The position numbers were made by a program, and so were the translations under genes. From IMG/VR virus record IMGVR_UViG_3300028025_005244, positions 1 to 60,646 of that record: 60,646 nt of DNA. One strand, 5' to 3'. The notes under the pieces are model-generated. The model was not told where the DNA came from and did not search any database. It saw nothing but the letters and a program-made list of their open reading frames with translations. Shown here in pieces: positions 22,252-25,461 of the stretch. This DNA is from a virus. Every line of letters starts with the position of its first letter. Position 1 is the first letter of the stretch.

Positions 22252-22669
22252 TTTTTACTCCTGTTTCTAGTAGATCTAAATTAATAAGGGTAGATATTAC
22301 AGATATAGAGGAGGATAGAGAAACAATCTTAAACAACTCTATAATGTGAATTAAGTCCTCTTCAATTAAAGGCTTACTCTCAGGGTGTTCGCCTAGCATC
22401 TCTAACTCATACGCTGCTGCTGCAATTCGAGCGGCAATATCAGAGTGGGCCTCTATTAAAGGCAATAAATTTGAGAATCGCTCTAAACGTTTTTGGCTTG
22501 CTTGCTCTTCCATATCAGCTACTTCATCCGATATTGGGGGCAATCCCATAGAGTGCCCTAGTGCGGCAACATCATCAAATATGGAGTCAAAAATTGCTTC
22601 ACGAATTAAAGTAGGCATAGATATATTAAGAATCTTTGTTACTTTTTTCTTCTTTTTAAACAACCCCAT
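22244..22669 (-). CDS. Conserved hypothetical helical protein
   Basis: 141 residues from the ATG at 22669, which overlaps the Pol A stop as TAATG and has GGAGAG just upstream. It begins with GLFKKKKK and continues with long amphipathic helices and a hydrophobic C-terminal segment (about 108-130). A basic head and hydrophobic tail could suit membrane association. It sits between Pol A and the zinc-ribbon gene. Confidence 0.65.
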   Translation of the reverse strand: MGLFKKKKKVTKILNISMPTLIREAIFDSIFDDVAALGHSMGLPPISDEVADMEEQASQKRLERFSNLLPLIEAHSDIAARIAAAAYELEMLGEHPESKPLIEEDLIHIIELFKIVSLSSSISVISTLINLDLLETGVKNE

Positions 22670-24648
22670 TATTTTGCCTCTCCCCATCTGGAGACAAGTG
22701 TAACATCTGCAATCAAAGGTACGGACAGCACATTTATGCCTTCCATAGCCTCGATCACAGCGGCCATAGTTATTTCCGCCAAGTGGTCAGGGCTAACTAC
22801 AACTAACTCGTCATGAACAGTTAGGATTAAGCTTGATTCTTTTGGAATCAAAGCCTGAGCTCTAACCATAGCAACTTTTATTAAGTCTGCGGCAGATCCT
22901 TGGATCATAGTATTAAAAGCCTGGCGTTCAGCTCTAGCTCTAGCCCACTGATCTTTAGCCCTAAGCTCAGGAAGATAGCGTCTGCGCTTTAATAGAGTGC
23001 TTACATAAGGTATAGGGGTTTGACGACGCGATTCTGATACCACGTGCCTCTTATACCTAGCAACTGCAGGAAACTTCTTAATAAACATATCAAGGAGATT
23101 CTTTGCTTCGTTTAGGGTACAACCAATTTCTTTAGCAATCTTATCTGGACCTACACCATAAGCAAGGGACAAAACAAGAACTTTTCCTGCTTTTCTATCA
23201 ACACCCATGGTATTTCCAATGGTTGTGTAAATATCTTCCCCGTTTTTATACGCATCTACCATAACCCGGTCACCGCTAAAACTAGCAATAATTCTAGGTT
23301 CAATCTGAGAGTAGTCTGCAACTATAAGCTTGTGGCCCTCTGGTGCAATAAAAAGATTTCTAATAGCTTTACCGTTTTTAGTGTGGGGTGCGGGAACATT
23401 CTGTAGATTTGGATTTCTACTAGAAAAACGCCCGGTCTCTGCTCCGTACTGAACAAAGTCAGTATGGATTCGATCGCGATACATAATGCTCTCTTTAACA
23501 ACCGTCTTTGATTTGCCAGCTAAGGTACGAGTGATATCCCCACCCAAGTATGGAATTACGTACGTAGTCATAAGTTTATTTAAGTCAGAGTAAATAAGTA
23601 ATTGATCTACAAGAGAGTCTCTACCACGAAACGCATCTAGAGCAGGCTCAGAAACAGAGTAGTCTCTAAAACTGGATACATAGTTAGGGTCAGAGGCGCG
23701 TTTTTCTCCTGCTGGGGTCATAAGCTTTGGCTTAAGTCCTCTACCCCCGTCTTTTTTAGGAGTAAATAATATTTCTTGTTTTTCTGGTACGGAGTTTAAA
23801 TTAAATGGGCGTTTAGCTAAAGCAAAGATCTTTCCTCGAGTGTCTTCAATTTGACCCTCTAGATCATCCTTTAATTGCGCTAGCTGATCTACATCTATGT
23901 CTGCACCGCGTAGTTCCATGTTGCATATGACGTGTAAAACATCCATCTCAAGATTAAATATTGGCCCTAAACCATCTAACGCAAGTTTTTCCTCATAGGA
24001 CTTATACAGTTTCCAAGTCCACTCGGCATCAAGTGCAGCGTAAGTAGCGACCTCATCAAAGGAATAGGCCTCAATTTCTTTTCCTACACCCTTAACCATC
24101 TCGTAACCAAACTCACGCTTTAAGCAGTCATCGAGACCTAAAGAGATCCTATTTCGATTGTCTAAAATAAAAGCCGCATTGAGGGTGCAGAAATATGGTC
24201 CGGCCGGTAAAGATTTGTTGTATTTAGTCACGCTTTGTAAGTCAAATTTTAAGTTGTGCCCAACCTTTACCTTAGAACTGTTAAGTAAAGGCCTAAGAGC
24301 CGAGAATACCTCGGCCGGAGTCAACTGCTCGGGTGGGGATGTAAAAACTTTTGTAGCCTTCTTTTCATCCTTACTATAATCTTGAGGACGAATTTCCATG
24401 CCGCTTTCTTTTCTAAGAACAGCAGAGGGTAGTAAAGGAAAATCAGTACGTAAAAAATCGCCATTTGGGTGACCCATAGGTATGACGTCTACCCGGTCAT
24501 CTGTCGCCAAAGCTATCCACACAACACGGTTCTGTCGTGGATCTCCTCGATGATCACCCATAGTTTCTACGTCAAAAGCAAACGCAGGCTTGTCACTATA
24601 GTGATCAACAAGTTCTTGTAATTTATCCTTCGTCGTTATTATATTCAT
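22669..24648 (-). CDS. polA: Family A DNA polymerase with 3'-5' exonuclease
   Basis: 659 residues from the ATG at 24648, chosen because AAGGAGG lies five bases upstream. The exonuclease domain has FDVET, VGHNLKFD and YAALDA. The polymerase domain has motif A VADYSQIEPR, the O-helix RKAGKVLVLSLAYG and motif C VHDEL. Aligning R754, K758 and Y766 of E. coli Pol I puts Leu at position 762 and Val at 761 (normally Phe and Asn). Leu762 is the common virioplankton type. No 5'-3' exonuclease domain is present, as usual in phages. It is the main replicative polymerase. Its leader carries an unusual structure (see 24654-24715). Confidence 0.95.
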   Translation of the reverse strand: MNIITTKDKLQELVDHYSDKPAFAFDVETMGDHRGDPRQNRVVWIALATDDRVDVIPMGHPNGDFLRTDFPLLPSAVLRKESGMEIRPQDYSKDEKKATKVFTSPPEQLTPAEVFSALRPLLNSSKVKVGHNLKFDLQSVTKYNKSLPAGPYFCTLNAAFILDNRNRISLGLDDCLKREFGYEMVKGVGKEIEAYSFDEVATYAALDAEWTWKLYKSYEEKLALDGLGPIFNLEMDVLHVICNMELRGADIDVDQLAQLKDDLEGQIEDTRGKIFALAKRPFNLNSVPEKQEILFTPKKDGGRGLKPKLMTPAGEKRASDPNYVSSFRDYSVSEPALDAFRGRDSLVDQLLIYSDLNKLMTTYVIPYLGGDITRTLAGKSKTVVKESIMYRDRIHTDFVQYGAETGRFSSRNPNLQNVPAPHTKNGKAIRNLFIAPEGHKLIVADYSQIEPRIIASFSGDRVMVDAYKNGEDIYTTIGNTMGVDRKAGKVLVLSLAYGVGPDKIAKEIGCTLNEAKNLLDMFIKKFPAVARYKRHVVSESRRQTPIPYVSTLLKRRRYLPELRAKDQWARARAERQAFNTMIQGSAADLIKVAMVRAQALIPKESSLILTVHDELVVVSPDHLAEITMAAVIEAMEGINVLSVPLIADVTLVSRWGEAK

Positions 24649-24653
24649 ATCTA

Positions 24654-24715
24654 CCTCCTTAGTGTAGAGGCTGGGAAGTTCCGCCAAGAAGGAGGCGAAA
24701 ACAGCGGAACTCCCC
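24654..24715 (-). promoter_or_regulatory. Candidate pseudoknot masking the polA ribosome binding site
   Basis: In the mRNA a 12-bp stem (24704-24715 with 24673-24684, one G-U pair) closes a 19-base loop. The loop contains CCUCCUU (24689-24695), exactly complementary to the polA Shine-Dalgarno AAGGAGG (24654-24660), with one extra G-U pair possible. Loop-to-SD pairing would form an H-type pseudoknot with connecting stretches of about 8, 4 and 12 bases. T4 controls gp32 and gp43 by RNA structures near their starts, so autoregulation by Pol A or the SSB-like protein is a reasonable inference. Confidence 0.65.
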
Positions 24716-24732
24716 AACCATAGAATCGAGAG

Positions 24733-25461
24733 TTACTGGCCAGCCAGAAGTTCTCTCGCAATTTCCTCAAGTTCGGCGTTGGTTGACACACGAAGTGCGT
24801 CTGGACCAAGAGGCTTCATCTTAGAGATTACACTAGAAAGTTGAACTGGATCTAAATCCCAGTCCTCTGCCAAATCGCGTTCCTTGACTGGCATTATTGA
24901 ATATGAAGTTTTTGTTCCAATGCCGGACTTGCTAACCGCCCAATAAATATCAGCGCGATCGATAGGCCCAACTTTTTTATCTGCATTTAACTTTTCAAGC
25001 TGCCCACACAAACGTACTCCAACTGTCATAAGTTGAATCTGTGGGACCTCATCAGAAAGGTTAACTACGCTGAATGCAAATTTGCGCTCAGGCTTATTTC
25101 CAACACGAGATAGCGGATCGTTATCCCAACCAACAAAAGACTTCTTACCTGGGCGGTTTACCCAGTGCTGTAAAAAGCTCATTGGTTCTGCTGAAAGAAA
25201 CTTTACTAATTGCACGTCTTCATCAAACCTAAAATCGGTTGTAAATGACTTGCTTGCTTCGGAAACGGCTCGCTTTGCTGCGGCCCATCCGGTTTGGATA
25301 ACAGACGAACGATCTGGAAAATCAGATTCGCTGTCTTCAATAAATAGATCTTCTTCAACTTCAGAGATTACGGGTGATACAGGGTCTGTTCCTAGATAAG
25401 AAGAGACGTTAGGTGCTTGTGACACGGTGTTTCCTTTCATATTGCCATAGCCAGTTGCCAT
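24733..25461 (-). CDS. gp32-like single-stranded DNA-binding protein (putative)
   Basis: 242 residues. The central stretch FLQHWVNRPGKKSFVGW, then DPLSRVGNKPERKFAFSVVNL, follows the pattern of gp32-like SSBs of actinophages (F--HW-----KRSFVC---CPLC--GDKP---F-FNV). The zinc-type Cys residues of that pattern are replaced here by Asp and Ser. The fold is probably an OB. The C-terminus is acidic and amphipathic, as in SSBs that recruit partners. It lies directly upstream of polA. Confidence 0.6.
   Translation of the reverse strand: MATGYGNMKGNTVSQAPNVSSYLGTDPVSPVISEVEEDLFIEDSESDFPDRSSVIQTGWAAAKRAVSEASKSFTTDFRFDEDVQLVKFLSAEPMSFLQHWVNRPGKKSFVGWDNDPLSRVGNKPERKFAFSVVNLSDEVPQIQLMTVGVRLCGQLEKLNADKKVGPIDRADIYWAVSKSGIGTKTSYSIMPVKERDLAEDWDLDPVQLSSVISKMKPLGPDALRVSTNAELEEIARELLAGQ

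Follow-up and report, generated by a model that had tools for sequence, protein, structure and literature searches.

A candidate pseudoknot masking the polA Shine-Dalgarno sequence in a family of uncultivated actinophage-like genomes

The intergenic RNA that separates a gene for a probable single-strand DNA binding protein (SSB) from polA, the gene for a family A DNA polymerase, is probably a cis-acting translational control element. In two large clades of related phages (clades 1 and 2 below), the loop of a hairpin in this RNA is predicted to pair with the polA Shine-Dalgarno sequence (SD) as an H-type pseudoknot, which would lower polA expression. Loop and SD change together between these clades, and this co-change supports a pseudoknot that would act in cis by masking the SD. 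The element was first noticed in a single IMG/VR virus record of 60,646 bases, the whole of which was analyzed and is called the window here. The first-pass annotation of the window, which proposed the pseudoknot, knew of no earlier account of such an arrangement, and the literature that we searched likewise gave no pseudoknot between a loop and the SD in front of a phage polymerase gene.

Structure of the ssb-polA intergenic element

The features of the window are collected in Table 1. The ssb-polA intergenic element is surrounded by a cluster of replication genes, and polA is assigned by matches to Pfam DNA_pol_A (E = 5e-87), to DNA_pol_A_exo1 and to PHROG 17. The hairpin starts 13 nt past the stop codon of the SSB-like gene, and the RNA from there to polA is ordered as GGUUGGGGAGUUCCGCUG[UUUUCGCCUCCUUCU]UGGCGGAACUUCCCAGCC-UCUACACU-AAGGAGG-UAGAU-AUG. 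The main observation of the first-pass annotation, a hairpin with a perfect anti-SD in its loop, was verified letter by letter, CCUCCUU being the perfect 7-nt complement of the polA SD AAGGAGG. Its measurements needed revision. The stem given as 12 bp is 18 bp long, made up of 16 pairs plus two inner wobbles; the loop has the 19 bases claimed if both wobbles are left open and 15 nt in the full stem; and the full stem ends 8 nt before the SD instead of 12.

Table 1. Features of the ssb-polA region, in coordinates of the window
Feature	Position	Strand	Basis or remark
SSB-like gene	24733..25461	-	ORF; directly upstream of the hairpin; stop codon 24735-24733
Hairpin	24669..24719	-	Folding, verified coordinates, paired stem changes in relatives
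Stem S1, 18 bp	5' arm 24719-24702, 3' arm 24686-24669	-	Letter-by-letter verification
Loop, 15 nt, UUUUCGCCUCCUUCU	24701-24687	-	Letter-by-letter verification
Anti-SD CCUCCUU in the loop (5' strand of putative helix S2)	24689..24695	-	Sequence; loop tracks the adjacent SD across clades
polA SD AAGGAGG (3' strand of putative helix S2)	24654..24660	-	Sequence
Linker L3, 8 nt, spanning S1 if the pseudoknot forms	24661..24668	-	Sequence
Whole stretch from stem end to polA start ("linker")	24668-24649	-	Sequence
polA, family A DNA polymerase with 3'-5' exonuclease domain	22669..24648	-	Pfam, PHROG
polA start codon ATG	24648-24646	-	Sequence

The leader folds with an energy of -36.5 kcal/mol (z = -3.6), which none of 200 shuffles equaled, and its hairpin is the one stem-loop in the whole window with CUCCU in a loop. 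Since CCUCCUU arises in 1.3% of composition-shuffled loops, the window alone is only suggestive; it is because the hairpin and the co-change of loop and SD are conserved in relatives that the match amounts to more than chance. Rfam gave no match at the gathering threshold across the whole window, and the leader by itself had none even when E values as high as 5 were allowed.

The first-pass annotation was right in placing the leader between an SSB-like gene and the polymerase gene, and the upstream gene can be called an SSB gene only with the word probable. A Foldseek search of the PDB with an AlphaFold model of the protein (pLDDT 73) gave no significant match, and the identity therefore rests on PHROG matches and annotated homologues. 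Relatives of the protein match PHROG single-strand DNA binding families with a best E of 8.8e-8, the protein of the window reaches E = 0.034 against these families, and it is homologous to the "SSB protein" of Alone3. A T4 gp32 profile matches weakly over the zinc-site region (single-comparison P = 0.0057), and a PDB sequence search with the SSB profile found nothing. Several SSB-like relatives, spread over all three clades described below, carry an H...C...CxxC pattern resembling a zinc site, which is lost in the protein of the window (24736-25461).

Conservation of the hairpin as RNA

No phage record matched the leader in a DNA similarity search, so relatives were taken from IMG/VR by way of the polA protein. 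Searches of viral contigs with polA yielded 182 distinct leaders at a polA identity of at least 45%, and a strong hairpin is conserved in 179 of these as against 5 of 300 simulated leaders; in 175 of the 182 it lies no more than 50 nt from the start. On a polA tree, for which BRock and other Streptomyces phages served as the outgroup, 117 leader representatives fall into clade 1 (38, including the window), clade 2 (43) and clade 3 (36). The family is a large one of uncultivated phages, the hosts of which are probably actinobacteria. Two WhiB genes encoded in the window point to such a host, as WhiB genes are a commonly used criterion for actinophage (PMC10202952). A search of bacterial genomes with polA found no relative and hence no connection to a prophage or a host.

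Nearly all stem positions show changes on both sides, a result that has to be read with the caveat that the hairpins had been picked for pairing. In a MAFFT alignment of ten leaders, 92.9% of cells are paired, compared with 38-64% when the partners are slid by 1-3 columns. The stems contain 148 G.U and 60 A.C pairs (p = 9e-10, with A.C allowed as freely as G.U), and this excess of G.U on the mRNA strand indicates that the structure acts as RNA. A DNA-level element between ssb and polA, such as a cruciform or a replication signal, would suit the location within a replication gene cluster, but with this imbalance on the mRNA strand and a loop that follows the SD we find it barely conceivable.

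The median gap between the SSB stop codon and the hairpin is 12 nt in clade 1, 9 nt in clade 2 and 12 nt in clade 3. Some 12 nt past a stop codon is roughly where the edge of a terminating ribosome lies, and for this reason translation of SSB should leave the hairpin largely folded. A tRNA-Asn gene lies between stem-loop and polA in one relative, L223 (2892-2964), with a tRNA-Arg gene further upstream. Roughly 100-250 nt separate the hairpin and SD from the present polA start in L016, L248 and L240, and in the first two of these a short truncated polA start (MRVLTTKHI-stop) persists beside the hairpin.

Co-change of loop and Shine-Dalgarno sequence

In clade 1, a GGAG core in the SD is accompanied by CUCC in the loop in 31/38 leaders, and in clade 2, GGGG is accompanied by CCCC in 27/43; a GGGG SD beside a CUCC-only loop occurs in neither clade. 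Core pairing is found in 31/38 clade 1 representatives (missing in 7) and 28/43 clade 2 representatives (missing in 15), and is mostly absent in clade 3 (2/36). The mean energy of the native loop:SD duplex is -8.1 kcal/mol in clade 1 and -7.6 kcal/mol in clade 2, and clade 2 loops placed on clade 1 SDs reach just -4.2 kcal/mol as against the -7.6 on their own. Native loops outdo composition-shuffled ones in clade 1 (about 3 sd) and in clade 2 (about 7 sd), whereas in clade 3 they are no better. Permutation within clade 2 favors the native loop:SD pairs (p = 1e-4); in clade 1, the native pairs have no advantage over swapped ones (p = 0.66). In clades 1 and 2, most loops have been kept complementary to the SD of polA itself over long evolutionary distances.

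The SD of polA is itself unusual in clade 2, with GGGG and GGAG in a ratio of 31:6 compared with 43:93 for other genes at the same loci (Fisher p = 1.2e-8). This bears on the idea that the loop is a mimic of the 16S rRNA 3' end (CCUCCUU) that works in trans, either on SDs generally or on a ribosome-associated factor. Clade 1 loops do often read ACCUCCUUUCU, which is the 16S 3' tail of actinobacteria and extends to bases left unpaired with the polA SD. The CCCC loops of clade 2, on the other hand, differ from 16S, mismatch the GGAG typical of the locus and match the GGGG of polA. A loop that follows the exceptional SD of its own downstream gene argues against a 16S copy or a general SD target, and we consider either highly unlikely.

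Loop and downstream sequence have also changed in smaller lineages. In that of L122, L237 and L238, the SD has become an AGGGAA-type sequence, and two stretches further downstream, the changed SD among them, pair with the loop UUUUCCCUCCUCCUUUUU; all 18 of the 18 loop nucleotides of L237 are paired downstream, at -19.3 kcal/mol. The AU-rich stem of L049 and L055 is unrelated, and its loop again matches GGGAGGCGAAAC just before the SD (-14.4). The pseudoknot put forward by the first-pass annotation is supported by the comparison of leaders that it had suggested, in which the stem shows heavy covariation and loop and SD co-change in two large clades and one extra lineage. The same annotation held that relatives keeping polA and losing the complementarity would speak against it, and relatives that keep both polA and hairpin and that lost the complementarity, or never possessed it, make up clade 3 and several subclades.

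On the tree, about two changes, in essence one or two events deep in it, account for the shift from GGAG/CUCC to GGGG/CCCC; a phylogenetic sign test would need more, and bases flanking the S2 core show no covariation. The state of the core, paired or not, switches about 15 times on the tree, and several leaders have an S2 match of only 4 bp. Linkers of 3-8 nt would have to span stems of 12-18 bp, and those of clade 2 are short for their stem length. Straight-line A-form distances, taken as a lower bound, would permit the span with no pairs opened in 35/36 clade 1 leaders and with 0-3 outer pairs opened in clade 2; on the same lower bound, 18 bp would call for a linker of at least 7 nt, and that of the window has 8 nt.

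The SD could also be sequestered by the 3' arm of the stem once the 5' arm is displaced, as in an attenuator-like switch. Good hairpins between 3' arm and SD can be drawn in individual leaders, such as L097, L293 and L278, but the two elements do not covary and native combinations are no better than swapped ones (p = 0.65-0.90), which leaves this switch very improbable indeed.

Relation to known RNA operators

In T4, a pseudoknot about 67 nt upstream of the start codon of gene 32 is bound by gp32 and represses gene 32 itself, as cooperative binding that begins at the pseudoknot then covers the ribosome site (PMC3014915, PMC535899). Like the gene 32 operators of T4, T2 and RB69, the polA leader belongs to a phage replication gene, has a probable SSB in its operon and is predicted to hold an mRNA pseudoknot. 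Here, however, the SD itself would be one strand of the pseudoknot and the target would be the polymerase; the element of the window follows the SSB gene and precedes polA, and so is not in the leader of the SSB gene. The gp43 operator of T4 and RB69 is a small hairpin with a conserved UAAC-type loop and no evidence of a pseudoknot (PMC3014915). It too is a leader hairpin of a phage DNA polymerase gene, whereas the present stems are 12-18 bp long and of changing sequence, the polymerase belongs to family A, and the loops are pyrimidine-rich and SD-complementary, with the UAAC type not present among them.

Masking of the SD by a pseudoknot is familiar from riboswitches, namely the preQ1 classes and SAM-II (PMC11625349, PMC10622847), in which a leader segment likewise pairs with the SD region. 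The polA leader differs from these in having no conserved ligand pocket, no Rfam match and a stem that is free to change in sequence. The translational operator of E. coli rpsO (S15) has also been named as a pseudoknot (PMC3014915), although rpsO is a host ribosomal protein gene with a known binding protein, and none is known for the polA leader. The polA leader element is a known structural principle in a new place and gene.

Other intergenic hairpins were seen in these genomes. In L450 (G003:15754), G004 contig 4642 (L453) and G009 (L459, minus 15458), a small gene of unknown function (NQxLWNSL-type) is preceded by a second hairpin that is conserved, with a varying stem and the near-invariant loop UACCCCUUCUC, which partly matches the SD of this gene. 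A 14-bp hairpin in L463 (1258-1309) has a loop, CCUCUCU, that is the perfect complement of the AGAGAGG ahead of a proteasome-like (Ntn hydrolase) gene, and is absent at the orthologues in two relatives. In L445-L449 and L452, an intergenic hairpin with a varying stem and a loop without an anti-SD lies before a conserved gene (VAKxKVTDVTG...).

Proposed role and origin

In the mechanism that we propose, a very stable hairpin forms about 7-14 nt past the SSB stop codon, and in clades 1 and 2 its loop would pair with the polA SD to give an H-type pseudoknot that rivals the ribosome. We infer that helix S2 forms in the cell and represses polA, so that the shared mRNA would yield much SSB and little polymerase. 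The balance may be set by a protein, either SSB or the polymerase, or by the ribosome. The hairpin likely doubles as an insulator or as a 3'-end element of the SSB mRNA, and the assertion of the first-pass annotation that the leader has no other obvious purpose is doubtful, as a hairpin also follows the SSB gene in lineages whose loops lack an anti-SD. In BRock-like Streptomyces phages, at about 40% polA identity, the SSB gene is directly followed by a hairpin with no anti-SD in its loop, and in two of these phages, GiJojo and pSt2308, small ORFs lie between this hairpin and polA.

These phages, together with the clade 3 and subclade leaders that keep the hairpin without loop:SD pairing, also favor a rival explanation, by which the hairpin is solely a 3'-end, processing or partial terminator element of the SSB mRNA and the loop:SD match is compositional, a loop rich in pyrimidines facing SDs rich in purines. 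The constant distance of about 12 nt from the SSB stop codon would fit such an element, as would the runs of 5-6 U that follow the stem in a few relatives (at least five U in 9/117 representatives). It would not account for clade 1 and 2 loops that beat shuffled ones and match the SD of their own clade, nor for a clade 2 loop that follows a polA-specific SD, and the stem of the window is followed by UCUACACU and not by a U tract. We regard a purely 3'-end or terminator function as rather unlikely. A trade-off between U-tract terminators and anti-SD loops was considered and rejected, since the overall signal is weak (p = 0.03) and clade 2 by itself shows none.

Returning to the pseudoknot, the hairpins without an anti-SD loop in BRock-like phages and clade 3 point to an order of events in which the hairpin behind the SSB gene is the older part, perhaps serving at first as a 3'-end or insulating element, and in which clades 1 and 2 gained the anti-SD loop later and repeatedly lost it. 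More tentatively, and as a possibility that we would not yet favor, the ssb-polA pseudoknot may represent a new family of phage translational operators that responds to the level of free SSB (or polymerase) and adjusts how much polymerase is made, an older hairpin having gained a loop that follows the SD. Should the pseudoknot function in the way put forward here, it would provide a compact case of an RNA operator arising from a plain intergenic hairpin and then being lost, and a new RNA family to annotate. The candidate pseudoknot is common to many uncultivated actinophage-like genomes, in which it would control the replicative polymerase.
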